Source of the DNA: Macrophomina tecta | Taxonomy: Eukaryota > Ascomycota > Dothideomycetes > Botryosphaeriales > Botryosphaeriaceae | Direction: 5' to 3' | NCBI GenBank assembly: GCA_024180945.1 | Contig: JAKSGN010000005.1 | Location: 62,001-126,000 of the forward strand | DNA length: 64,000 nucleotides | The notes under the pieces: model-generated | What the model saw: the letters and a program-made list of their open reading frames with translations, nothing else | The model's database searches: none | What the model was told of the DNA's origin: nothing | In this document: piece after piece, positions 39,904-59,100 of the stretch | Position numbering within the stretch: the stretch's first letter is position 1 | Layout of the letters: the number at the start of each line of letters is the position of its first letter | Position numbers and translations under genes: made by a program

Positions 39904-40624
39904 CACAGTAATGCAATGACCCGATGATAACGCCGGAGGTCTGAGTGCAAGCGCCGCAGGTGCCAAGATCTCCAACAGCAGCGGTCAATACACCGTCTCT
40001 TTTGAAGAGGAGGATGTTTTCCGGCTTCAAATCCCCATGGACCAGGCCGCAAGTGTGCAAAGCTCCAATGCCATCGGCGACGTCCGAGGCAAATCGCGCC
40101 ACATCTTGCGGTGAAATGGAAATCCCATCCACTGTCTCGGCAAGTAGATATTGTTTGAGGTCATATGTTGCGAGCTCAAAGACGACGCAAGGACGGATGC
40201 CCACTGGATTTTCTTCTTCTTGGAAAAACACACCGAGGACGGCGGGAAGGTTGCGGTGGCCTCTCAGTTTCGCGCTCGCTAGAAGACGTAGTTCCTGAAT
40301 GATACTCGTCAGGGCCTCATGTTGGACGGTGTTCTCGACATCCACGCTAGCTCGAGTGAATGAGGCATTCGGCTGCTTCACGGCAACAACCTCTGCCGCT
40401 CCTGTGATGATCTCAGCCCTCCATGTGGTTGAGTATGATCCACATCCAAGTTGTGTCCATGATTCAACGTTGAATGAGGTCTTCGGAAAGACTTTAACGC
40501 CAAGTGCACTGGCATAGGATAAGAGGTTCCGATAGCCGACAAGCCCGCTGTTCTGTTTGATGCCGGTAACAGCAAGTTCCAAGTCTGAGGGAGTCGGTTC
40601 GCTACTGCCGTTGGCGCTCTCCAT

Positions 40625-41145
40625 TGCGCATGAGGTTCGTGTGTGGTATGCTTTGGACTGCAATGCGCGTAATTTTCAAACTGGTTCAGCGCGATCGGAA
40701 GAGAAATTTCTGGCATATATATTGTGGGGTTCAGTTCTCCCGCACGACAGGCTACTGCTGCCCAGATGCACGTTACCGCAAGTAGTCAAGCCATTATTGC
40801 CCAGATGCATCTCGCCGGAATTAGCCAAGCCACCTTATGCCAGGTAACCAATCCACTTGCGAATGTGCAGGTGGTGTTCTCGTGTTGCATTCAGTGGTAA
40901 GCGTGCCACAATGCAAGCCTACGTTACTCATTCATGTAATACTCACTCGTCACAATCGAGCCGTTCATGGGTCCAGAGCCATATATTATGCACGATCCCA
41001 CCTTTTGTGCAATTCTGGATTCAGCTCAGCTCCAAAAAGGTTTGACGCTGCGAAGCTCCTCCAAGTTCAATTCCAGGAACCGATGGTCCAGGTGCTATCT
41101 TCTGCATTCTTAAGACCTTCTCGTAATATCCGTGGCACGTCGTTC
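40625..41145. promoter_or_regulatory. Divergent promoter region between the kinase-ankyrin and esterase-pseudokinase genes
   Basis: About 520 bp between the two start codons. It contains an imperfect 39-bp tandem duplication at about 40757-40834 (both units begin TGCCCAGATGCA and end AGTCAAGCCA or AGCCAAGCCA). Sharing of control elements is inferred from the head-to-head arrangement. Confidence 0.4.
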
Positions 41146-44100
41146 ATGGCTCAAGGGAAGAATTTGGCATTCAGAGTGCAGCACGTTCCCTCGGAGTTCT
41201 CCGAATATGACCTTACGACTACTCTTCGAAAATCATTCAAAGGAAATGAGCTCGACCACATTCACCCAGAAGTATCGCTGGTTCCCTCGTATAGTACCGA
41301 TCATCTTACTCAAGATGCACTCGTTCGTTTTGACCCACAACCGCCATCCTTTCTCGAGGGCGTAGCAAAGGACAGGACGAATATGACAGAGTGCCAACTT
41401 CGCATTGAGGGTGCGGTTCTCAGCATCGATAAGCATTTCCACGGACTCACTCAAGTCTCCAATTTCTCTACGGATGAGAACATTAAATTGGAGTATGTAA
41501 CTGTCGAATTTGGGTGGGCCTCAGGCCCGAACTCGGTGAGGTCAGAAGAGAGAATCGAATTTCTGTCTGTGTACTTCTGCCTGTCAATTCGAACGAAGGA
41601 GAATGAATGTCTTAAATACATAAAACTAGAGTGATATAACCGAGGAAATCAGAGTATCCGAGGAAGTATAGAGCATCCGAGGTGTAGGGGAGCACCGAGG
41701 AAGGAATTAATATAGAGCCTAAGGAAGTAATATTAAGAGATACCTGAAAAACAAGGGGATTTTAGTTGATACACCCCCTTTATAATAAGCAGTCTGGTGC
41801 TTGTTATAACCCTAAAATTCGTGTAAAAGTAAATTTAATCTAAGAGGCTATCTTAAGGTTTCTAGGAAATCACGTTCTTAATATTAATAAGGTTTAGTTG
41901 CTTAACAAATTACTAAAAGCGTTGCGTAGGTAAAGCCTTAGTAAGTCCATCCGTAATTATCTTTACTAATAGAGTCTATTAAAGTCTAATTCGCTTATTC
42001 TAAATCTCTTAACGAAGCTAGTATTAGTAAATATCGACATGGCGTAGCTTTATTATAAGTCTAGGCGAAGATTCGTCTAAAAGTCGAATTATCTAGCGGT
42101 TATCGCATTAGATAAAGAGATAATAGTCTAGATCGAACTTAATATATTTAAAGAGGCATTTCTACTAAAGAAGTTCTTTCGCCATATTTAAAAGTAAGAG
42201 GAATTCTACTTTAGTACTTAATATAGTAACTATTCTCTATTTGTTGGCTTTTTAATTAATTAGTCTATTAAATAGCTAAAAGATATATTTCTAAGCTAAT
42301 TTTCTAGTTTCCTAGTCATTGGCGAAGAATGCGTCGCTATAGGATAGGAAGATATTTTATTATAAGCTATAGATTCTATTAAATTCGATTACGAGGTGCT
42401 TAGTTAAGACTAGGTATTTAATAGCACGTATAGCTAGCTGCTAATAACGCTTAGAGGGATTTTATAGGTACTCCGCTAGCCTTAACGCTGCCTATATAAT
42501 ATCTAGACATGTTATAACTACGGTAAAGTTAATAGACCTAATCTTTTACTAATAGGTGTAGATTTCCTAATTAGTGGCCTAATTAGTTAACAGTTAAATA
42601 TCTTTAACTAGAAGTAGTATCTATGGTTACTTATTCTAGTTAATATTAAATTTGGCGCCTAGTTTCTCGATATATAAGTCTTAGTAGAGCTAGAGCTTTC
42701 TCTATGGTCTATCTTAAATAATTCTAATATTAAGAAACTACTCGAGTTCGCTAAGGATTTATAGTTCGTAGATATTAAAAAGTTTCTGTTAAAATTTATT
42801 AACTTAGCGTGAAAATTCTTTTAGGTAAATAACTACGATGTTATTTACGAAGAAGAATAGGATTATTACCTTATTTAAGAATAGGTAGTTAACTCCTAGA
42901 ACTTAGGTAAGGCCGAGATCTTAAAGTATTACTAATAGATAGCTATTTTATAGAGCTAGTAATTACTTAAGGCCGTAGAGTACTCGTAGAAGTTAAATAA
43001 TAAGTCCTAGTTAAAGGTTCTAGAATTCTTCGAGTAGGTAAATTTCCTTTAGTAGTTCGTAGTACATATCCTTATCGATCGGACTATTAACGAAGGTATT
43101 TATTATATTATATTATCGCGATTTAAGGTCGAAGGCTGCCGTAATTACTATAATTGTCAGGATGCGGTAGTTGGTGAGGAGGAGGTCCTTCCCCGGGGAT
43201 AGTAGCGGCCTCGAGCCGCCTAGGGAAGAAAGGTAGTATAGCGTAGATAGATAGCTACCGTCGGAAGGCGTTCTAATAATAATTAACTACTTTTGTATAT
43301 CTCGTTCCCGAAGTCCTATAAGGCCTTGATCCGTTTAGGAAGCGGATCCTGGCAACTAGTAGCTAAAAGCGAAAAAGATTAACCAAGCCCTCTAATCCGC
43401 TAGGAAGAATATCTTCTACTAGGAGAGGAGCCTAAAACGCCGCTTACGAAAGTAGCGCTATATCGAACCCTCCGCACCCCAAACTACCGTACGGGAAGCC
43501 GTCCCTCTTCCTCGAAACCCTATTAACGATTTAAGACTTAGTATATAAGACGCTCTATCCGCCTTCGTAGCCTTTACGATCTCCGCTTCTCTATCGCTGG
43601 CGAAGAACCGCGCTGGCTAAGGAAGGAAGCGGTATACGACGTAAGAGGCGCTAATAATGCGTAAGAATATTCGTAGCTACTTAATTACCTACCGAAAACC
43701 CAACCGATAAAACCCAAAACCGGTATAATAACCGCGATATAAGCATCCTGGAGCGTCTACCGCGGTTACCGGACGCGACTGTCCGGATAGCGTTCTAGCT
43801 AGTCGGTTTCTGGGAGGAAAGACTATCTAATAGAAGGAAACTCGTCGCGACCCTCGAGATAGCTATACCGTTAGCATAAACGATCGTTATATACTATACG
43901 AAGCCGAACGATACTTTCTCCCGTTCTTTCTAACGTAATACTCGTAACTCTCTCGAACCCTCGGAAGTCTAATCGGCTAACTAGTACCCGCTTGACTAGA
44001 ATATTAAGGTTAATGGAAAGGAACCGATTACTACGGCGGTAAAATAGTTTCTTAAGGAGCTTAACTAACTTAATTCTACCCGGAACGAGAACCTCCGTAA

Positions 44101-47100
44101 AGATTACGAAACGAAACGTCAGGAATATAAATAATAGTACGAAAGTAAATTAGTTTCGAAAGCCTAAATAACGCTAGCGGAACTAGGACCTTCTAGTCCG
44201 GTTATAATAAGGACGGAGATACTAGGAGCGTTCGTGGAAATGATACGAGTACTATAGAAATCTTACTCTACCGCTTAGACTCTCTAGAAGAGAGCATAGC
44301 CTTAGGAAGTTATTAAGTTATCGCCATCTACGACTTCCCAGACATCGGAACGATATACTAGCCGGGTAAGTTAGGAACTAGAGAACCAGGACTAGTTACC
44401 TTAGCGCCCTCGGTCGAGAGAACCGAGTGCGCCGGCTCTGAGGAGATTCCGGTAGTACTAAGGGGTAAAGTCGAAACTATTAGTACTTATGCCTATCTAA
44501 TCCCAAACGCCGGAAGGGTTTCTAGAAGAACCGGCGCTAGAGCTCGGTATAAGTAATTCTTTCCCCGAAGAATTACGCCCTAGAGGAGAAAAGGAGTGAT
44601 TCCCCCCGAGAAATCCCTAACGTACTAAGAGTTAGCGCTTATATACTAAGTATAAAGTGGAACTACTTTTGTTGAATTAGAGACGCTAATATGAGACTAA
44701 AGAAGCGGTATATAGGTCTACTTCGCGAGATAAAGGTATAGGAAGAAGACTCCGACGTAATAGCTATTATGAATACGAAGCCCCTTTCCTATAGCCCCAA
44801 CCGGAAAACTCCTAAGCCGCATAGTAAGGTTAATCTTTAGACGCAATACTAATGGAGAGGATTACTAAGGTAGTAAGATAGATCATTAACGAAGAGATTA
44901 TATCGGCGAAGAGAAGAGATCGTAAAGCACGTACCGGGCTTATTAAATAGCCGTTACGGAACGACCGTTTCTCGGCTAGCGTTAATACTGGGCTAATAAT
45001 GTAACGTCGCCCGACCACTATTAGCTAACGATAACTAGAGGATAACGATTTCTCTAGCTTATTCTTCGGAACGGAAAATAGTAACCACGATCGCTTTCTC
45101 GGAAGGGACCGGCGTACGAATCGAAGGCTATTCCGCCGCTTAAGAAGGGACTCCGCCTTGTTAGATTTAAAAGACTAGAGACCACGGGCAAAAGAGAAAC
45201 ATCGGCGAACCCTATACGACGATCTAAAAGTAGACTTTAAAGATAAAGGCCTACTAAAGTACGATAAAGATAAGTTTAAACTAGACGAAGTCGGTTACTT
45301 CGACCCGAATCTTAAAACTACGGGTGAGGACGACGAAGATTTAGTTAAGAAGAACGGTAAACTCTACTATAGAAACGTTCGTTAGTTTATCGAGACGGTT
45401 AAATACTAGCTATACTCTAAAATAGGATCCTTAGTTAGGCGAAGCCTTTAGTAATACCTAAGAGGGACCGCTTAAGCGTAGTATATGGCTTAGCTATCTA
45501 AAACGGAACGTGATTACCTAAGAGGTGGAAGAAGAATTAACTATTAGAAAGAGAAACTAATTAAACGCTTTAAGAAGCGCCCTTCGGAAGTATAAAGAGA
45601 GCTCTAAAGAAAGTACTACGGACTATAAAAAGTAAGGGAAGAGCGTGCGATCGGGAGATTTATTATAGATTACGTTCGGTTGGCTTAAGACGCCGGAATT
45701 ACCCTAATTAAAAGTTAGCTTCTCCAAGCGCACGAGAGGATTAATATAGAACTCCGCCGCGACCTTAAACTACTAATAGGATTAACTACCATAGATGCCT
45801 ACATCTATAAGGCCGAGGAAAAGGTAACTCTTTAGAGAGACCTAATCCGCGAAGAGGAAAGACGAGACCGTAGGCGTAATTGGAATAATTTAAGAAATAT
45901 AGCGCGTTACGACAACGATAATAGGCGAGATCGAGACTATAATCGTGATCGCGACCGGAATAGAAACCGGTATAGAGACCGGTATTAGAATACTAACCGC
46001 GACCGTGATCGTGACTAAGACCGCGACCGAAACCGAAACCGAGATCGCGATCGAGAAAGGGAGTAAAATCGCTACCGTAATCGCGATAGAAAATAAGACC
46101 GAGATAAGGATAAGAACCGTAATTGTACTAGAGATTAAGACCGAAGAGCTAAGAAGAACGAGAAGGATCGTAGTACGGATTCTAAAAAGAAGGCCTACGC
46201 GTATAAGGTAGAATCGGAAATAGACTCCGAAGCCGAAATTATAAGAGAGTTATCTACTGAAGAAGAACCCGAAAGAGACACGGAGAAATCTGACTCGTCG
46301 ATATATATTAGATTTCTTAGGACTATCCCGTCTCTAGTAATCCTATCTACTAACTTTATAATACCGGAATTAGACTCTACTAAAGATAATAAGAAACCGT
46401 TAAGACTACTACCTAAGCTATAAGGGATAATAAAGAAAGACGAATACTAATACTTAATATACGGATCTACTTGGCCGATAAGGAATAAGTTATATACTTA
46501 TATTAGAGAAGAGCATTCTAACCCGAAAAAGACAAGGCCCGTCGCTAAAGGCTTAGTTAATTTAACTAATATTAAGAAGCCCGATACCACTCTAAGACTA
46601 GATTAAGCCCTAGCGGAGATTATGAAAACCGTATAATTAATAGCTAGAATAGAACTAGACACTAGAAAGGCCTATAGGAGTTAGTTATACGCGGTAGCGT
46701 AAGTACGTCTCGGTAATAGCGATAAGAAGGTCGAATCTATGGCGGACATAGACTATACGATATTCGTTACCGATAAATAGTTTCTCGAAAACTCGGGAGC
46801 GAGTTACTAAATCCTAACTATAGAACGAAGCATTAGAGTCGAAGGATTCTAAGGTAATTAGGCGCTATATAATTAGTACGTTCTAATGCGCTTTACTTTC
46901 CGCGCATGGAAGAATGGAACGTGGGTAAATATGATATTTACTAGAGAAATTTATATCGTTTCGGACTACTATAACACGCTCCTCTTGGGAATGGACGTAA
47001 TCGGCCCTAAGGGTATCGTAATCGACTCTACGCGAAGCTGCTTACGCTTAACGCACTGCCAGAATGTAGAAGTACCTATAGAAATTAAAAATCGCTCTAA

Positions 47101-50100
47101 AGGAATAATTAAAGAAATAAAGGCGAGAGCGGCGGAAGATATAGTAATTCCACTACTATCTCTAACGCCGGTAATGGTGAAATTCACGAAAGCCCTCCCT
47201 AAGCAACGGGATTTCGAATTCATCCCGCGGTACGGAGAGCGTAGAAGCAAGAATTAAGCCTAGTTATTAGTATACGCGTATATCGTCGATGCCGAAACGA
47301 AAGCCGTGTGGCTAAGAAATGACAGTTAGGAACCGGTATAAGTACTAAAAAATAAGCCTCTCGGCACTATAACCGATAGACAAGTAACACGATTATACGA
47401 CGTCGAAAGCCACAACCACGGTATAGTAGTACTAGATGCCGACGTAATCCCCCTAGAAATAGAAACTCACCTTAAGAACGGGATTACTATCTACGGTAAT
47501 TAAGAGACGGTAAGGAAATACTATAAGGTAATAAAGAAATATCTAGATCTCTAGAATGAGAAGTTAGCTTACGTCCGCGTTCTAGAAGAAGAATATATGC
47601 CTATCCCTTTAAAGAAAAAGTGGGAAAACACGAAGCTTGCTACTAAGGTCTACCCACTTAGCGTTAGAGATAAAGAGGTGGTCGATAAAATCTTTAGCAG
47701 GCTATACGATTAAGGGAAGCTTAACTAGATAAGCGGCTATACTGTTTTCGGGTTCCTAGTCTTTGTAGTATGGAGATGGATCTTTAAAGATGATAAATAG
47801 GTAGAGAAGCTACGAGCGGTAGTCGACATCTGCGGCTTAAATAAAATATCCTAAAAGGATTTCTATTTCCTACCGAAACAAGACGATATTATCTCTGCAA
47901 TTAAGGGAAAGAAATTTATTATAGTCGTAGACGCGACGTCATTCTTCTACTAATAGAGAGTCCGGAAGGAGGATCGTTATAAGCTAATGGTAAATTCGCA
48001 TCGAGGCCAGGAATCGTTTAACGTAGCCTTAATAGGATATATTAACTTAGTCTAATACGTTTAGCGCTAGCTGGACACGATTCTAAGAGACTTTTAAGAA
48101 TTTTATCGCGCCTATATTAATGATATAACGACATTTAGCCGCACCCTAGAAGAGCACTTAGACTACCTAGATCGAGTTTTTAGCAAACTAGATAGCATGG
48201 GCATTAGCTTATCCCTAACTAAGAGTTTTATCGGATACCCATATACAACGCTCCTCGGACAAAGAGTGGACGCGTTTGGACTAGGTTCTACGCAAGAGAG
48301 AACCAAAGCGCTAGTAGAGATACCCTTCCTGGAAATGTTAAAGTAACTCGAATACTAGATCGGCGCTATAGGGTTCCTATAATCGAAAATCCCCTACTAC
48401 GCTATAATTATTAAACCTTTAACGAATTATAAGACCGCCTTATTAAGAGCGAGTCCAAAGAAAGGAAACGCTAGGAAGGCGTATACTAAGTAAACTAAGG
48501 TAATCCCGTTAGAGGATCGCATAGCGGCGTATAATGCGATAAGGGAATATCTAAAAGATCCTCTATGGCTTACACACCACGATTCTAATAGGCGGTTATA
48601 TGTCGATATCGATGCATCTAAGCAGGGAATCGGAGCGTTAGTATATTACGTTAAAGGTAACCCGGAGCCAGCAACGTAAGAAGGAAGGGTGCTACCCTAG
48701 CCTAATGAGAAGATCTAACTAATTCTATTTCTTTCTAGAGTATTAAAACTAGCGGAGACCCGGTACTGGCCGACGGAACTTAAAGTAGCAGGAATAGTAT
48801 AGACGCTACGAAAAATTAAGCACCTATTATATATAGAATTAGTAAAGGAGGCCTATTTCTTTACGAATTACTACGCAGCAACCTTTATCGCGTAGTATTA
48901 TAACTTATAAATGACCTTAGCCACCGATAAGATGAACCTAAAGCTAGTCATAGCTAGCTAGTATATTTCGTAATTTATAATAAAAGTATAGTATCGTCCC
49001 GGTAGAACCTACCTAGTACCCGATACTCTAAGCCGTCTAATTAAGAAGCGGGAAGAAACGAGTAACGAGAATAAGAATTTATTAGATCCCACGCCAATCT
49101 TTATAATTACCATAGTGGAAATGCCGGATAAGATAAAGGAGCGTATCGCTAAGAAATATCGTAAGAATACGCACTAGCGAAGGATATTAGAGATCCTAGA
49201 CAGAATAAGGGAAACAGATAAGAAGAATATATATAAAAGAAACGCGGAAGAACTAGAAAAGTTAGTGCAGGAATAAGCATAAGAGAAAACGGGAATGTAT
49301 TAAGAATATAAAACCCCGGAAGAGGCTCGATATATAGCACGAAACGACGAAGCGCCGCTAACTAAGAACGCGAGACCGGAAGTAGGGAGCAGCGACGAAG
49401 AAGGAGAGTAAGTAGATAATAAAATCGCGGAGGTAGTCGCGCTAGAGGAGGATTCGCTAATAGGAGACGCGTCGCGGCCGGACACGATAACGTAAAGAAG
49501 AAAGTGGAAACGCTAAAACTTTCTTCCGGACCTAACGGACGCCCCCCGGGCGGAATCGAAAAACACGGCCGAGACCGACGGCCTGAGAATACGAAGAAAG
49601 GCCGCGCAACGCTAAGCACGACTATATTAGCTTACGAGAACGCTTTATGCAGACGCTACGGAAAAGAACGAGAATCCAGAGGCTATATAGAGGTTGCAGT
49701 TCTTCCTAAGGAATAAAATAATCTACTATATAGATCTAGAGAACGGAAGGCACCGCCTTTACATCCCCTCTATAGTCGAAAAGGAGATATTCGAAATAGC
49801 ACATAATAAATAATATTATAGCGGATACTAGAGAACGTATAACTATATTAGGCCTACGATCTTCATTAAGAATATAATAAAGAAATTACAAGCGTACTTA
49901 GTATAGTGCTAGGAATACTAACTGTGTATAATAAAGCGCCACGCGCCGTACGGGGAACTCTATCTAATCTAGGATTCTTTTATTCTAAGAGAAGTCTAGA
50001 TAATGGATTTTATTACGAAAATACCGCCGATAAAGAACGCCTTCGATGCGCTCCTTACTATTACCTGTAAAGCCATAAAGGCCATCCTCTTAGTTAAAGG

Positions 50101-53100
50101 CAAGGAGGACTGGAGCGCCGAGGAATAGGCGGACTGATATATAAAGAAGATCGTCTTCTACGAGTAGGGACTCCCTAGGATCTATATTATAGACCGAGAT
50201 TTACGCTTTATTTCCCGCTTTTGGAAAAAAGCTTGTGAAGCGATAGGAATCGCACGCTATCTCACGACGGCGTATTATCCCCAAGCAGATAGCTAATTAG
50301 AAAGGAGTAATTAAACTGTGGAGATTATATTACGATACTACGTTATAGCAAATCCGGACCGCGAATAGACCGAGGCCCTTCCGCATCTCTAAGCCGTCCT
50401 TAATAACGCGGTGAGCGCTACTACTAGCTTCTCCCCAAACTAGATACTCTATAGTATAAATATTAAACTAGACCCTCTCTCGGCTCTTGCGGAAGTGCTA
50501 GAAGACGAAGCGCAGCTCCGTAACGCTATATGCCGAGAAGCGGAGGAGGTAATTAGTTTCGTAGCTATAAGTTAAAAAGTCCGCTACGATGCTAAATATA
50601 AGCCCCTCCATCTAAAGAAAGGAGATTTAGTGTTCGTAAAACTCTACTAAGGATATAAGATAAAAGAATACGCGGACCGAAAATTCTCTTACTAACGCTA
50701 AGGCCCTTTTAAAGTTAAGAGAATAATCGGGAATCTAGCCTACGAGTTGAAATTACCCGATATATAGAAGATTTATCCCGTCATCTCTATTGCGCAGCTC
50801 GAGCCAGCCCCTAAGGGTATAGATCCCTATAAAAGGAACTAGAAGTACTCTAAACCAGGACCCCTTATAGACTAGGATTAGCCTAATCCGCCGTACGAGA
50901 TCGAAAGACTTCTCGATAAAAGGGAAGTATAGGTCCGGGGCAAGACGAAACGGAAATACCTCGTGTAATAGAAGGGCTAGGGACCAGCCTATAATAGCTA
51001 GCTAGGGGAAGACGCATTGAAGTAAGTAAAGAAGCTCGTCTAAGACTTCGAAGTAAAGTATCCCATTGCCGCGCCTAATCGCCCGATTAGAGGCAGGCGC
51101 AGAACTAAATAGAAATAACTACGAATAGTATAGCAACGATGCTATAGGCCGGAATTATATTTCCCTATAGAAATCGAACCCTTGGTAGAAGCGTTAGTAA
51201 GAACGCTTACGTACCTTCTAGAATTACTACCCTAATGCTCGGACCGACGTAAATATTAAAATAAGATCTTTTCGCGCCAATACGCGTTCTTTTACCTAAA
51301 TAGATATAAACATAAAATTCCTCCCTTATAGATCTATAAACAACACGTATAAAGGATAAGCCTAATGGATTCTATAGCGGTAATCGCCACTTGCGAACGT
51401 CTACTAAGGATTGCTAACTATAGTCCTTTCTCCTCTTCCCTATAAACCAGCTCTATGACTTTTACACCTCGCGATTTTGTAGAGAATAGAATTGCTAACT
51501 CCTACGCTTTCTTTCTTTACCGGAGATACTAGTATACTAATATAAGCAACCGCTTTCCTAGCTTACTAGCCTTATTAGAGACGCTCCGTTTCCCTATTAC
51601 TTACTTAATTATTAATATAATCCGCGCCCGAAGGCCGGATTATTTTACGGCGGATAATCCTGTGAGCTTCCGTAACTTTGATAATATTCTATAGCTTCTC
51701 GCCGAGTATTTCGACTTCTAGCTCGCCCTAGACGAGACTATAATGGATAAGTAGCTTACGACCGCCCTCCCTTTCGAACTTCTAGCCGCGCGCGACGCTA
51801 TATATAGAACCTAGGAACGCTAAATCTCCTAAGTAATCACTGACCTTTCTACCGGGATTGGCGCTATTGCCTAAGAGGAGGCGATCGTCGAGGTAACTAT
51901 CGATATTCTTAAGTAATCTCCTACCCTAATCGCCCCCCTTAATCTTTACGAAACGATTGTACGGTCGATCGTGCGCCTTATTAACTACTATTACCTAGGC
52001 TTTCTTAACCCGGAAGACGGGTACTACGACCTAAGGTACTTTCTAGACTGTATTTGGTGAACCCTTGCCTCTAAAACCGATCTATAGGCGATCCTCGACT
52101 TCTATTGTAATAACGGAAGGTTCGCCCGCTTCCTCGAATTAACCGATTCTACGAATAACGATCTAGAACCGGTAGCTATCTGCGTTGGTTCTCTCGCCCT
52201 CGCTGAAACGATATTCCGGAACTACCTCTTTTAGTTACTACGCTCCTACGATCTTAAAGGATCGGTCTTAGCGGTGCTACTAGACAAAATTGCCTTATAA
52301 AATACCGGATTAGACGAATTTGACGAAGAGGAAGCCGAATCCCCCTAAGGACTTCTCTAAGACCCCCCTCACGGCACGTAGAGCAATATCCTGCCCGAAT
52401 AACCGACGGAATTACTAGTATTTACACGCTCGACCTCCCCTAATCCCGATATGGCGCCACTAAAGGCGATAGATAAGGAGATCTCCCCTTCCTCCTACCC
52501 CGCTAAGGAGAATATATAGCATTTCGGTAACGACTATTCGTAAGGAGTAGTGCGATGGGTAATGACGTAAAAGAAGGCGGCGGAATATAGGGAACTATAT
52601 TTAATAAAACTATACGACACTAATATAATCGTTACGACCAATAATCTCCCGCCCGAGAACGTTATTCTAAGTAGTAATTTGGCCTACTAGGTTATTCGTA
52701 TAGTGCTCTAAACTAGAATCATCCCGTTACGACATTTGTACGAGCTCTAGCCTAGAAATTTCACCACCATTAGCGGTTTCTTGGTCACGATGGAGCTTCT
52801 TAGAAAGCTAGCCCTTATTTAGCAATCCCCGGACGATATTAAGATAACCTTTAGTATATATAATAGCTACGTTTATATCGGCTCCGCAGGCTTTTAGTTA
52901 TTGATCGGATCGATAAATAAGAGCGCTATCTAGATGGCTAAGAAGGCTCGCCCCTAGTATAATTCTAGTTATAAGACCGCAGGACTATATAGCTATAATA
53001 ACTTCGATATACTATTCCTACCTGAGCTAGTTCGTAAGATTAATCTAGAGCGGTTTAACCCTTTTATTACTTATAAAACCGCTTATTAGAAGATCCTCGC

Positions 53101-56100
53101 TAGATATAAGAAAGAAGACTACCCCTTTAGACCCGATAAGAAGTCCCTAACACATCCGGATCGGCAAAGCTACTAGCAGGAAGTGCGTAAAATAGCAGCC
53201 CGCCCCGGTCTAACTAGGGATACGACGTCGCCGGAATACCCTACTAATATTATAGAACGCCTCTCCGCAATTAATGTTTCTCCACCCGATAAGGTTACTA
53301 TAGAGAAGCTAAGCGACGTCGTCGATATTAAGATACTAAAGAGGAGCAAGGTCTGCCGCGATAAGAATATCGCTATTATAGGAAAGCCGACGTATATGCT
53401 GAATTAATAAGTATGGAAGGACTTCCTTTAGGCCGCGGGAGCTACTATTTATAACGCGGTTTCCTTAACTATAAACTATCTTATTACCTACGATAATAGC
53501 GACTCTCCTAGTAGATCTCTTGTTAAGAGCGTAAAGAAATATAGGATTTATATTATAACCGAGAGGGCGTTTGTAGAGAAGTTGCGAAGGACTATAAAGA
53601 CTATAACCGTAAAGACGACCACCCGCCTCGAGAAGGAGAACCCCTCGGACCTAGATAACGACGATAAAGCGATAGAGACCCTAATACCGCCCCCGCGAAG
53701 AGAGACTAGATCTAAGATTAATAACGAGTCGGAAGAGCTTCTAAGAATAGGAGGAATCCTAGCTTCCGTTGGGTATCTAGAATTTATATACCGAGTTACC
53801 TTCTAATAAATCGCCTAAGCGACTAAAATTCTAGAGAGGGTTAAACAGACCACATTCGTGGCTATAAAAGTATAGATCGAGCGCTAGGAAGAGATGCTGG
53901 CATCTCTTACGAAATACGCAAGCCGAGTTACGAATATACTTACTTAGAATTATCTAAAGTATAATATCGAAGCCCTCCGTAACGGACTCGAGTTATAGAA
54001 GGACATCCTGTAGAATAGCTTCGATACTATAACTAAAGATCACGCCACGGGCACTCTTAACTTCGGCGTAGTAATTTCTAAGGTTACGAGAAAGACCTTC
54101 CCGGAAGACAGAATATAAGAGGCGTTATAATACTTTGCGGGTCGAAAGAATATTCCGCTAATCTAAGAGCTCCGAGCTCTAGAAGCTTGGTTTATATTCC
54201 TAGAGCGTTATAAGCACGCTATGTAACGCGATATCGACTAACGCACCGTAATTAGGCAGCGCTTCCACACCGACAAGAAGGAACGCCAGCCGGAGCCAGA
54301 GACACCTAGGAATAAGAAACGCTCGGTACCGCTAGAATTTTATTTACCCTAGGAGACACTAAAGAAAGCTAAGCCGGATGAAATCATCTCGATCTCCGAC
54401 GACGAACTTAAAGTAGGATCGCTAGCCGCTAGCGACCGTTCCCTCTTCCTTTAAGGGGAAAAACCCGTCCTAAGTATAACGATTAAACTGCCGATTTGGA
54501 AGAAGGGAATCCCCGCCCTACTACGAAGTATTCTCTTCGCCTTTTCTTTCTTATTAGCACCTTCTATAGACTAGTACGGCGATACGAAGGTCCAGGGTAC
54601 ACATAAAAAAAAAAAAAAAAAAAAAAAGTCCTTTTCTTTTTGGTTTTCGAGTCACAACGCTTTGGAAGAAGATAATAGATGGAAGGAGTAATACGAAGAG
54701 TTTGTTTTTTCTTTTCTTTTCTTTTATTTCTCTAGCTTTTTTTCCCTCTCTAATCAACTTTCCGCATCTGAGGACCATGATGGATTACGATCTATTAAAA
54801 TCCACCCGCCCAGATGTCAGGATGCGGTAGTTGGTGAGAAGGAGGTCGTTCCCCGGGGATGGTAGCGGCCTCGAGCCGCCCAGGAAAGGAAGGTAGTATA
54901 GCGTAGATAGATAGCCGCCGTCGGAAGGCGTTCTAATAATAATTAACTACTTTTATATATCTCGTTCCCGAAGTCCTATAAGGCCTTAATCCGTTTAGAA
55001 AGCGGATTCTAGCAATAATACTTCTAAAAGTCCACGCGGCTAAAGTTGCTATATATATATCCTATTCGGTAAATTATAGATCGCCGCGGACGCAGAGTCT
55101 AGCTTTAAATTTAATTAGATATTTCTTAGTATCGAGTTTATATTTAAAAACCTAGGTAAAAGGGATAACTTTCTTACTAGCTTATATAGTAACGTAATAC
55201 CTAACGAATCTCTAGGTTCTAATTTTAACGAGGTCTCTAACTTTAGTCTTAAGGGCTAGAATAAATCCTAAAGAAAATAGATGCTAAAGTATTTCCTTAA
55301 AAGTTTATAGTTTTAGTAGTAATTAATCTCTATAAAGCCTTAGTAAACTTTCTAAACTATTAATTACGGCTAAAAATATACTAAAATAGAAAGAATTTAG
55401 AATTTCTCGAATTTCGTTAAGGGCTACGATATAGGTGTCTTTTCGTTTCTTCTTTAGTTTCTTAAATAGATTCTCTAATAGTTAAGGGTTTAGATTTTAT
55501 ATACTACGTTTACTACTCTTACCCTCTTTAGGTATAATAGTATTCTCGGTAACTATACCTAATATCTCTACTCCTCGGGAAGCGACGTTTCCTAGGGCTA
55601 CTTTTAGTTATAGTAGAGTATCATACTAAGCTAGAAGAAGTTATAAAAGCCTTCTTATTAGTTAAACTTCTAGGTCTAGAAGTAATCCTTATAATTACCT
55701 ATGTTATTAACTAGCTATAATCGATAGGTCTAGTAATAGTAGCTATTAATTTCTTCTAGATTTCTCTTATTTAGGTCTTATATCCTATGTTACTTAAATA
55801 GTATAGCTAGCTTTAAAGTTACTATTCTTAGATTTAGCTTCATTAGTTTATTAGTTGACTAGATACTAAATTTTAAGTATTTAAATAATTTCTAAGGCTT
55901 TCTCTTAAAGGAGTTACGTAAGGTCTAGGTCCTCTAGTTAGTAGAATTCGTTCTTATTAAATTTAACGTCTCTAGTTCGAATAATCTTATATTAGCTTAG
56001 TATCTAGATTCGAAAGATATTAGTAGAGTCGTATCTAATAAGGTATTTAAAGTATACTTTTTTAGCGAGTTTCTAGCTTCGTAGAATCTCTTTTTTATGT

Positions 56101-59100
56101 GCATAGGCTCTATAGCCGTAGATACGTAGATAAAAGAGATTTAGTCTCTTACCTATAACTACCTTAAATAGGGTTTTCTAGTTTAGCTTGGCTATTAGTG
56201 TGTGATTATAAATATATCTAGCTATTTTAATGATTTCTAGCTAGAGTAATTACGGTAGATTAGCTTTAATTCTTATAGCTCTCGCCTTAGGTAGAATAAT
56301 ACCCCCTAATCTTTCGGCGTGGCCGTTTTGTTTAGGTGTGGCTAGAGCTAAGGTTTTAAGGGTAATTTCTTTTAACTAGAGAAAGAATTTAGTCTCTATT
56401 TCGATAGTTCATTCGCCGTCGGTTTTAAAGAAAATAATTTAACGCTTATAGCGGGTCTTAATAAACTTAACGACGAACTCGATAATATTCTATACATCTA
56501 ACTTATTTAGATAGGTGAATATAAAGGTAAAATCCGTCTTAACGTAGCTAAAGTAGGAGATTTACTTATCTTAATTATATTCTTTCTAAATTTAGAGTAG
56601 GTTAAATAAAACTTAGTAGAATAATTCGTCGAAGTCTTTCTCTTTAGTCGATTCTCGTAAGATAATTCTCTAGGATTTTAAAAGAGCGTAGGGTTAATAT
56701 TAAGTTATCTTCGGAGTAAAAGGCTTATTAGTAACCGAAACTCCTTCTATATTTATCTCGAGGTGTTAAATAACTTCTAGGTTCGCGTATATAAGGATCT
56801 AATACTACTTCTCTACTAAGGCTTTACGGGTAGCTGCTAGAAGTACTATATATTCTTAATATTTTAAATTAGAATTATATTCCAGCAAGAAATGCCCTTA
56901 ATATTATTAAACTTTATAGTAGTGTTTTTCTTAGTAAATAAGCTATATATTTTAGGTGTTCTAGTAGATCTTTTTACTAAGTACGATGCTTATTAACACG
57001 AGGTTTAATATAAAAAATAGAATAAAGGCGATATTATTTAGTATAATTATTTCTTAGCTAGTTTCAGTTTTAACAGTAATATCGACGGTTTCCTAGGCTT
57101 AGATTAGAATAGACCTATTACCTAATCTAAGAGTTTCGTTAGGTTTAGCCTTCTTCATTTTTTTAAATTTATGTGCTATTAACTAGTTATAGACGTAGAC
57201 GTTAGTTCTAAAATTAAGAATCTAGAAATTAAATAGAGGACTGCTTTAGGCTATAAAGAAAAAGTAGTGCGTAGTTATTACTATAAGCTATCTATCCTAG
57301 GATTAGCTAGTTTATTAATTTTAATTCTTAGATTAGGCTTCTTCTTTTTATTATTTTTGTTGCTAGATTTGCTTATTTTTCTCGAGTGCCTTAGTAATAA
57401 TTTTCTTAAATTTCGGGTTCTAAAGTTTCTTCTAAACTTTAGCTTAGGTCTTAGGGTTTAGCTTAAAGTTCTTGGGTCTTTCTTCGGCTTATGGGTTGAG
57501 ATACTAGTATTCTAAGGCCTAGTAATATATTCTATAGGGATAGGGAGGTGCTATCTTAGCTTATTTTCCTCGAAAGTTAGCGGGGAATACTAAGTAGGTT
57601 TCTTTAGTCTTTTAGAATTTAACTAACTAGTTCTCTCGGTAGTACTAGCGGAATTTCTTAATCATATTATAGAGGTCTGTAACGCGGGTTACTAGGTTAA
57701 GATTCTTGATTTAGTAGGTGCTAACGAATTAAGGTTCGATGGGTTTAAGTATAAGGAGAAAGTCTCGGGTTAGTCGATTATTTAATACTTCGGCTAGGTT
57801 ATGTTTCTTCGCCTTAGTGTAGAGCTTGTTCTATTATTAAAGCTAGGATTCGACGTTCTGACTATGTAAAGGCTTATAGAGTTAATAGTATTAGTACTTA
57901 AGCTTAAGTAGTCTAGCTTGGTTTATTAGCGTAAGGCGCTTCTAAAGTGCTCGAAGAATATTTTATAGATACGGTTCCTCTAAAGTAATAAATAAAAGAT
58001 TAGTTATTAAAATTAACTCTTAGATATATATAGTAAGCTCCGCAAGAGCTTTCTAGCGTCGGTCATAGACGTTAATTTTATATTAAAAGATAGTATATTA
58101 GTTCTTAAATCGTTCTTGTCCTTAGGCGTCGTTATTCGGTGGTAAGAGCGGTAGGTTACCTAGATTCGGAATCTAATCGGGTTATATAGTCTAATTAGGA
58201 TTAACTACTTTCTAAATACCTAGAGCCTTAGCTCGTAAGCGTATAAGGTATAGCCAGTTATTCTAGTCTAAAAATCGATTAAGAATAACGGTTTTCTTAG
58301 TTAATTTCGCTATTGCTAAATAGTCTCGTATTAGAATTCTTTTATTAGTTCTCGGGGAGTAACTTCTTACTCTTTATCCGGTTTACGCGTTGGATGCGAT
58401 AGCCGGGCTTATAACTATCGAATTTAGATAGGCCTTAGGCCCGAACTTAGTGAGGTTAGAAGAGAGAATTAAATTTCTATTTATATACTTCTGCCTGTTA
58501 ATTTAAACGAAGGAGAATAAATGTCTTAAATATATAAAACTAGAGTAATATAACCGAGGAAATTAGAGTATCCGAGGAAGTGTAGAGCATCCGAGGTGTA
58601 GGGGAGCACCGAGGAAGGAATCAATATGGAGCCTAAGGAAGCAATATCAAGAGATGCCTGAAAAACAAGGGAATTCTGGTTGACAGTAACACACCAACAG
58701 CTACCGTCACATAAAGATTTGGCTGACTCAGGGCCAGCGCGGTCCTTGTCACAGGCCTTGACGGCCATGCTTTCGGTTCTTGGACCAGCAGAGCGACCGG
58801 GCTGATGTGGCCACGAGAATTCCTCGGGGACGACCTCGCAGCCGCTCGAGTGATGACCTATGGGTACAATACAAAGCTCTCCAACAACATGTCCCACACA
58901 TTTGACGACTTCTGCAACCAATTGTTGCTAAACCTCAAGCTCGCTCGCCGAAACCCGCCGGTGGGGTCCGAACACGCTCAAGGAATGCCGCGCTAACATA
59001 CCGTAGGCTCTCTACCGGCCCCTTGTTCTCATCGGTCACAGCTATGGAGGACGAGTGATCACAAAGGTCTGTCTCCAAGCTACTTCGAGCGCGGATGTTA

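Follow-up and report, generated by a model that had tools for sequence, protein, structure and literature searches.

The 64,000-nucleotide stretch of Macrophomina tecta DNA analyzed here (hereafter the window) contains what is almost certainly a RIP-inactivated Ty3/Gypsy LTR retrotransposon with a third gene, ORF3, between pol and the 3' LTR. ORF3 encodes a BRCT domain. We tentatively favor the reading, which as a whole we place somewhat short of an even chance, that the protein of this inactivated element is a nuclear adaptor between the integration complex and repair or replication factors of the host.

The element is 11,860 bp long in the window and hypermutated by RIP, with a RIP index above 1 along its entire length. 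The pair of 200-bp LTRs predicted by the initial annotation, with first letters TGTCAGGAT, is present and is flanked by the 5-bp target-site duplication (TSD) ATAAT. The 5' LTR (43155-43354) and the 3' LTR (54815-55014) pair with each other and have TG..CA termini, and the two duplications, read from the sequence, lie at 43150-43154 and 55015-55019; apart from these unstranded repeats, all features given here are on the plus strand. The LTR has 40 matches across the genome among the matches listed. The 20 bases preceding the 3' LTR, inspected for a polypurine tract, are not purine-rich, and Rfam at gathering score gave no match in 40000-58000.

Within pol, Pfam profiles searched against pieces of the element with X at stop codons identify a reverse transcriptase (RVT_1, 47837-48235, 3.1e-8), RNase H-like domains (RT_RNaseH_2 and RT_RNaseH, 48518-48832, 6.3e-13 and 2.8e-9), an integrase H2C2 zinc-binding domain (49766-49915, 3.4e-4, below the curated cut-off) and a Tf2-1-like SH3 or GPY/F region of integrase (50621-50806, 1.3e-9). 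The LTR pair with TG..CA ends and the short TSD, together with the order reverse transcriptase, RNase H and integrase (zinc-binding match below cut-off, SH3 above), place the element in Ty3/Gypsy. A complete order from gag and protease to the chromodomain had been claimed. From reverse transcriptase to the GPY/F-like SH3 the claimed order holds, with the reservation on the zinc-binding match, whereas gag and protease have no Pfam match in 44306-47500 of the RIP-damaged copy (X at stops). A chromodomain-like end of pol (50894-51052) is readable in the sequence, and the sole match to the chromodomain profile PF00385, in relic L013, scores 22.3 bits, below the cut-off of 25.1.

Downstream of pol, about 3 kb had been described as running in one frame, never frameshifted and interrupted almost exclusively by TAG and TAA. 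Our counts agree: the 46 stops of ORF3 in the window copy comprise 24 TAG, 21 TAA and 1 TGA, an excess explained by the RIP of glutamine codons, which yields such stops. Two homologs are found in M. phaseolina MS6, the intact P0001 (995 aa) and P0002 (670 aa), and the RIP-broken gene of the window covers about 999 codons at 51455-54454. The MS6 contig that carries the P0001 gene measures 11,851 bases, close to the size of a single element. The start proposed at 51365 is corrected to the ATG at 51455, where P0001 begins and which relic L009 keeps, the ATG at 51365 not being kept there. The further proposal of an in-frame extension of the polyprotein is not supported either, as the frame shared with pol does not show fusion. 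In the probable spacer from pol to ORF3 (51110-51454), stops common to all seven compared copies number 8, 9 and 8 across the three frames and thus show no frame preference; L003, which is interrupted by an insertion, is left out of this comparison and of that of the poly(A) tract below. Many codons are stops in all seven copies, and this masks the true stop of pol among RIP stops. Taken with the ATG shared by P0001 and L009, these observations indicate that ORF3 is probably a separate gene, not fused to pol.

The predicted protein begins with an N-terminal region modeled as helical (51455-52234; low confidence, mean pLDDT 31), followed by a middle domain (52502-53101) that is the best conserved part between P0001 and P0002, with 52-95% identity per 40-residue block, and that is common to a more distant homolog considered below. 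The BRCT domain (53342-53563, Pfam; its region corresponds to residues 600-712 of P0001, approximately) precedes a long helical stretch, possibly a coiled coil, in the secondary structure of the same low-confidence model (53795-54097). Near the C terminus, a pattern scan finds a SUMO-interaction-like motif at 54383-54403 that is kept in both P0001 and P0002. No transmembrane segment is apparent in P0001, in which no 19-residue hydropathy window exceeds 1.6 and the maximum is 1.1; an env-like ORF3 was rejected on this ground.

ORF3 belongs to the mobile unit and is present in every testable copy of the family. The genome holds at least 21 family reverse transcriptase copies (86 of 427 candidates scored), and an ORF3 piece lies downstream on the same strand in 20 of these 21; the remaining copy is cut by a contig end, and no family copy shown to be without the ORF3 region was found in the genome. 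The distance from reverse transcriptase to ORF3 is 2,451-2,461 nt in 12 of the 20 copies and greater in the other 8, and every ORF3 copy of the window family among the matches listed contains stops. Around seven family units, the 5-bp TSD is exact in four, differs by one C/T mismatch in one, is absent in one and was not located in one. That the ORF3 region is an unrelated gene or a nested element within a single copy has a negligible probability: its presence in 20 of 21 copies and the exact or near-exact TSDs lying outside ORF3 in five of the seven units refute it for practical purposes, and nothing was found in its favor.

Several observations bear on whether ORF3 evolved as a protein. Among the family copies there is no signal of selection, with 0-10 transversions per ORF3; this test is uninformative because the copies differ almost only by transitions. 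We used transversions against older relics as a RIP-immune measure of change by codon position. These number 129, 100 and 202 at the first, second and third positions of ORF3 (chi-square p 4e-9), with the third position highest in eight of nine relic pieces, against 16, 14 and 11 in a 3' non-coding control. The effect is not significant alone in four of the nine pieces, and a pol-side piece of L009 shows none (31/26/32). The excess at third positions argues that ORF3 evolved as a protein, and the suggestion of the initial annotation that the element possesses an accessory BRCT protein is upheld, both as a regular component of the family and as one that evolved under constraint. Furthermore, relic L013 is a mosaic that combines a closely related pol end with a divergent ORF3, its breakpoint at about 51290-51320 falling inside the spacer; this junction suggests an exchange of modules.

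A poly(A) tract (54605-54627), the sole run of A or T of at least 10 in the element, lies 150 nt past the ORF3 stop and is found in all seven copies examined and in the old relic L009. The uninterrupted frame with this tract behind it resembles a captured mRNA and is indirect evidence that ORF3 may have originated by capture. It would also suit host sequence that the element transduced and carries as a passenger of no use to it. We consider such a passenger improbable given that ORF3 occurs in all testable copies and in divergent lineages and shows the third-position excess of transversions; word-limited protein searches moreover found no donor host gene, and transduction from a known host gene was rejected for want of a donor.

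The BRCT domain of ORF3 is real by sequence. A BRCT-like stretch had been proposed at about 53330-53585, and the profile search matches it at 53342-53563. Against the gathering cut-off of 21.3 bits for PF00533, the window copy falls just short at 20.7 bits when stops are entered as X and reaches 24.6 with TAA and TAG read as Q; intact P0001 scores 30.8 (E 3.5e-7), P0002 24.4 and relic L009 25.9. NCBIfam models of the DNA ligase LigA give a local match to the stretch, with scores far under the cut-offs set for the whole protein, and a PDB sequence search with it returns a DNA ligase BRCT at the top (E 0.024); the same search with the whole of ORF3 yielded nothing useful. Compared with 11 host BRCT stretches, that of P0001 is best matched by C2:849965, identified as replication factor C subunit 1 (RFC1) by Pfam AAA_lid_RFC1. 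Judged from these comparisons, the single BRCTs of RFC1 and NAD-dependent DNA ligase appear to be the closest relatives of that of ORF3.

Could the stretch be a chance resemblance within an orphan protein? Fold searches and profile alignment gave the domain no confirmation. An hhalign comparison with four host BRCTs gave 6.4% probability (P 0.006), and the predicted structures of full-length P0001 (from a two-row alignment, mean pLDDT 31) and of the BRCT fragment (pLDDT 53) are too poor to test the fold. Foldseek and VIA-align searches returned no BRCT among the matches listed, 50 out of 324 and 50 out of 188, those matches being RRM-like or other and non-significant; given the quality of the models, we do not weigh this outcome against the domain. 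Pfam scores above the cut-off in P0001, P0002 and L009 nevertheless make chance resemblance very improbable.

An open 876-codon homolog of ORF3 lies beside a broken pol in an older sister lineage (G000:C19:26175-28805). By hhalign it matches ORF3 across the middle domain and BRCT (probability 90.5, E 1.4e-6), and the observed scores were not reached by any shuffle in any test (300 or 1000 each). With phmmer, at E-values scaled to a database of a million sequences, the link is only E 0.004 to P0002 and 0.014 to P0001. Pfam finds no BRCT in this homolog, a point in favor of chance resemblance, and the PDB sequence search with it gives the DNA ligase that tops the search with the ORF3 BRCT, here at E 1.4. 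We regard this reading frame as a candidate domesticated gene. A broader scenario strikes us as rather doubtful: that a BRCT repair adaptor arose within a chromovirus lineage as an exchangeable third-gene module, that it places and heals insertions together with the chromodomain, and that it was domesticated at least once, as this frame.

In LTR elements, it is usually host factors that are credited with handling the gapped ends that integrase produces and the checkpoint response to them. Under the adaptor reading, the mechanistic part of which is weaker than the anatomy and which we hold more loosely still than the reading as a whole, the ORF3 protein would be located in the nucleus, would oligomerize through its C-terminal helical stretch and would dock through its BRCT onto host repair or replication factors. 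The protein is predicted to benefit the element by helping to bring in gap repair or clamp loading where integrase has left gapped ends, with the chromodomain picking the integration site and ORF3 acting alongside. By eye, of the residues presumed to hold the phosphate in RFC1, the threonine varies, the arginine is replaced by glutamine and the lysine is kept in ORF3; such partial retention weakens the case for binding of DNA ends by ORF3.

Two alternatives retain the BRCT and assign it another use. ORF3 could be a counter-defense or regulatory factor, which would not aid integration but would use its BRCT and SUMO-interaction-like motif to disturb host factors involved in silencing, checkpoint control or RIP. 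The retention of that motif in both homologs and the strong hypermutation of repeats in this genome are in keeping with this, regulators of Ty1 transposition with genome-maintenance roles have reportedly been studied, and the available text on the yeast BRCT protein Rtt107 describes binding to silent chromatin and to repair proteins through different BRCT motifs (PMC1660544). The domain evidence is identical to that for the adaptor, the proposed target is putative only and the family copies are RIPed, so any protection failed; we consider counter-defense unlikely. Alternatively, the protein could act in the nucleus or particle in RNA handling or assembly, in a manner comparable to other additional reading frames of LTR elements, with the BRCT as a self-assembly module. 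Precedents, as described in the available portions of these sources, are GENE23 of Grande, a nuclear protein (PMC7264820), and an accessory protein of Cer1 that functions in nuclear export and forms rods (PMC10309623), and the predicted long helix, modeled at low confidence, would suit assembly. Pfam detects no RNA-binding domain in ORF3, P0001 or P0002, and we find this role distinctly unlikely.

If the adaptor reading is true, a BRCT gene that the element itself encodes and that its lineages have retained would open the gapped-end step to tests on the element, and ORF3 offers a candidate path by which an accessory gene of a transposon becomes a DNA-damage gene of its host. Accessory genes can also hide in RIPed repeats, as the stops of the window copy illustrate. 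Protein searches limited by shared words, length and about 8,000 scored candidates each, in which distant relatives are missed, returned P0001 and P0002 alone, from one named assembly, and no relative of P0001 or of the open sister-lineage frame was found in viral contigs.

A search of titles and abstracts in the open-access literature, which bounds absence weakly, found no BRCT-bearing LTR retrotransposon among the papers listed; the sole paper combining BRCT, LTR retrotransposon and polyprotein concerns, in its available text, the partners predicted for the integrase of a human endogenous retrovirus. The nearest sequences, the BRCTs of RFC1 and NAD-dependent DNA ligase, reside in cellular replication proteins whereas that of ORF3 resides in a retrotransposon; according to the accessible part of one study, the RFC1 domain has been modeled on 5'-phosphorylated double-stranded DNA (PMC5333041).

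LTR retrotransposons with an additional reading frame are themselves a known kind. ORF3 lies between pol and the 3' LTR on the sense strand, occurs in most copies and shows protein-like evolution, as expected of the aORF-3S class, which in the available text is likewise a sense reading frame at this position, in most copies and with a putative function (Vicient and Casacuberta 2020, PMC7264820). The sense frames covered in that work resemble env, and transmembrane domains occur in some of them, whereas ORF3 has a BRCT and no transmembrane segment. Bdelloid rotifer LTR elements carry a third reading frame, in some cases non-env, which is common to diverse retroelements; the products are esterase, exonuclease or env-like, and BRCT is not named in the abstract (PMC5408684). 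In Phalaenopsis Gypsy elements a host-type domain, an AlkB-like RNA demethylase, is likewise fixed in an extra reading frame of Ty3/Gypsy, although the host is a plant, the domain is another and the extra domains that the available text names do not include BRCT (PMC9289625). Fungal chromoviruses are chromodomain Gypsy elements for which a figure legend mentions an additional reading frame of putative function, and unlike for the ORF3 element, BRCT is mentioned 0 times in the accessible text (PMC2864245). Finally, Boty/BcGypsy1 of Botrytis is, in the portions available, likewise a Gypsy element from an ascomycete and carries an additional gene, brtn (PMC8365987), which is antisense (PMC8365987, PMC7264820), whereas ORF3 is sense.

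A single LTR retrotransposon of 11,860 bp fills positions 43155-55014, with 200-bp LTRs that start with TGTCAGGAT and end in CA, and with ATAAT at both flanks. The composite RIP index exceeds 1 in each 2-kb step across 42-58 kb of the window and is mostly negative in adjoining gene-rich DNA, and the composition of the element shows strong repeat-induced point mutation (RIP). Pieces of pol, searched with X at stops, follow one another as reverse transcriptase (RT), RNase H, an integrase zinc-binding match that falls below its cut-off, and Tf2-1 SH3. The same domain search detected neither gag nor protease in this element; of the gag-to-integrase order in the initial annotation, the matches cover the RT, RNase H and integrase part. 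On the gag side, many Arg-Asp/Arg-Asn repeats are visible by eye at about 45860-46200, possibly representing an RNA-binding tail that replaces the zinc knuckle. There is neither a purine-rich tract directly 5' of the 3' LTR (54795-54814) nor, by eye, an obvious tRNA primer site just 3' of the 5' LTR (43355-43380), so priming may be unusual.

The third gene, ORF3 (51455-54454, plus strand), lies between pol and the 3' LTR. As originally described, the frame 3' of pol runs without frameshifts (to 54454) and its nonsense codons are nearly all TAG or TAA (24 TAG, 21 TAA and 1 TGA), which would be expected if RIP converted glutamine codons. The start first placed at 51365 is better moved to 51455, where the homologue P0001 (995 aa) from Macrophomina phaseolina MS6 begins; the ATG at 51455 is present in L009, an old relic in the same genome, and that at 51365 is absent there. 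The stop codon is TGA in both family copy L002 and L009. ORF3 does share the frame of pol, but this need not imply a fusion: in the 345-nt spacer the stops common to all seven compared copies are about equal across frames (8, 9 and 8), whereas ORF3 plus 200 nt has 28 in frame versus 60 and 76 in the other frames. Counting against separate pol and ORF3, L009 can be aligned as protein in the pol frame to about 51316.

Within the genome searched (54.1 Mb, 37 contigs), where the window occupies C5:62001-126000, there are 36 ORF3 matches. RT matches at 74% identity or more occupy 23 rows, two of them further pieces of split copies, giving at least 21 copies with 86 of 427 candidates scored. An ORF3 piece lies downstream on the same strand in 20 of the 21 RT copies found, and the remaining copy stops at a contig end; ORF3 is thus present wherever the copy is not cut. 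The RT-to-ORF3 distance is 2,451-2,461 nt in 12 copies and 3.2 to 14.2 kb in eight, which we read as carrying later insertions. Target-site duplications in seven elements were exact in four and had one C/T difference in one; one element had none, and in one the 3' LTR was not located. The integrase C-terminal piece has 129 matches, 104 of which belong to other lineages (identity at most 39%), and a search for ORF3 up to 12 kb downstream of these, on their own strand, finds it in just one case; there it is part of a family copy, whose own RT lies between the two. The ORF3 query is insensitive to distant homologues such as the one on contig C19.

The BRCT pattern initially recognized at about 53330-53585 is supported at the sequence level by PF00533 (cut-off 21.3 bits): its match at 53342-53563 reaches 20.7 bits when stops are given as X and 24.6 with TAA/TAG read as Q, and the scores are 30.8 in P0001, 24.4 in the second MS6 homologue, P0002 (670 aa), and 25.9 in L009. 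NCBIfam DNA-ligase models give local matches to this stretch, far under their whole-protein cut-offs. Among 11 host BRCT stretches, that of P0001 best matches C2:849965, where the protein is RFC1 according to Pfam; a profile comparison of the ORF3 domain with four host BRCTs gave a weak match. The protein is further predicted to have a helical N-terminal part and a long helix, and it ends in a SIM-like motif. In its middle domain, identity of P0001 to P0002 rises to 95% in some blocks; no transmembrane segment was found. NCBI names both homologues 'BRCT domain-containing protein', and the entries seen record no link to an element. Two fragments of one old relic in the searched genome are 96-97% identical to P0002, which suggests a host that is Macrophomina or closely related to it.

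P0001 is an intact ORF3 on an 11,851-base MS6 contig, nearly exactly one element, so an apparently un-RIPed ORF3 is present in MS6. The RIP signature is very strong at window positions 1-28000 and 42000-58000, whereas an excerpt of PMC3477038 states that RIP bias was not observed in the MS6 genome; either the species or strain differs, or RIPed repeats were missed by the earlier assembly. Long open frames, often of 1,661-1,802 codons, also occur in other Gypsy lineages (for example C13:96471 and C5:987742). They are stop-free in several equally scoring copies, and some of these elements seem to be recent or to escape RIP.

Relative to the window, each family copy has 0-10 transversions in its ORF3; these copies look like one burst and carry no information on selection. 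The older relics, L009 (integrase and chromodomain pieces, ORF3 and LTR) and L010 to L013, do bear on selection. RIP makes no transversions, and those seen against the relics are distributed over codon positions 1/2/3 as 129/100/202 (chi-square p 4e-9; nine aligned pieces, two overlapping by 17 nt), against 16/14/11 in a 3' non-coding control. The third position is highest in eight of nine pieces, significantly so alone in five. The pol-side chromodomain piece of L009 lacks the excess (31/26/32), which indicates that decay after death blurs the test. Judged by this pattern of substitution, ORF3 evolved as a protein.

Between L013 (C7:1390-1391 kb) and the window there are 11 transversions over the 360 nt leading up to 51290, where identity is 82% and most differences are transitions, and 133 over the following 720 nt, in which one 60-nt block has only two. 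L009 shows divergence to either side of this point (65 in 406 nt, then 73 in 321). L013 thus combines a closely related pol end with a divergent ORF3, joined just 5' of ORF3 (breakpoint about 51290-51320). This one mosaic suggests module exchange, although genomic recombination would look alike. About 150 nt 3' of the ORF3 stop lies a run of 10-23 A in seven of seven copies (L003 excluded) and of 12 in L009; in the window this tract (54605-54627) is the element's sole A or T run of at least 10. The uninterrupted ORF3 and A run look like a captured mRNA, though A runs have other possible sources, and word-limited protein searches found no donor gene.

The closest other integrase/chromodomain match (C19:24985-25856; 39% and 37% identical) is followed, about 320-330 nt 3' on the same strand, by an open 876-codon frame (C19:26175-28805; L082:6175-8805). 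With hhalign (90.5%, E 1.4e-6), this frame can be aligned to ORF3 across the middle domain and the BRCT region. Its alignment scores are 139 against P0001 and 112 against P0002 (maxima of 71 and 70 in 300 shuffles). Its BRCT part, cut at positions suggested by the alignment, scores 54 and 60 (maxima 42 and 51 in 1000 shuffles). The link is weaker by phmmer, which, scaled to a million sequences, gives E 0.004 for P0002 and 0.014 for P0001; no Pfam domain was found in the frame. Over some 300 codons, the adjoining pol carries two TGA codons and changes frame, and no RT was found in the 10-kb piece. At that rate about nine lesions would be expected in 876 codons and none is seen (Poisson chance 2e-4, rough and after the fact), so the frame probably outlived its element and is a candidate domesticated gene. 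A second piece of this older sister lineage is ORF3-like on the plus strand (C29:840879-841473), antisense to a nearby minus-strand RT, perhaps through inversion. The surrounding C29:840527-842801 is a distant relative with the minus-strand RT, an LTR-like piece and the plus-strand fragment.

During LTR integration, the joins made by integrase are incomplete: short gaps remain and the 5' ends are still unjoined, and host repair has to close them. A published model places the RFC1 BRCT on 5'-phosphorylated double-stranded DNA (excerpt of PMC5333041). With its RFC1/ligase-type BRCT, predicted assembly helix and SIM-like tail, the ORF3 protein might recruit factors for clamp loading, ligation or SUMO-linked repair to the site of insertion. 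By eye, the BRCT pocket residues are only partly kept in ORF3, which counts against this repair role, and ORF3 may instead serve in counter-defence or RNA handling. Additional ORFs in LTR retrotransposons are already known, as excerpts of PMC5408684, PMC9289625 and PMC2864245 describe, and none of the literature matches listed reports one that bears a BRCT domain.
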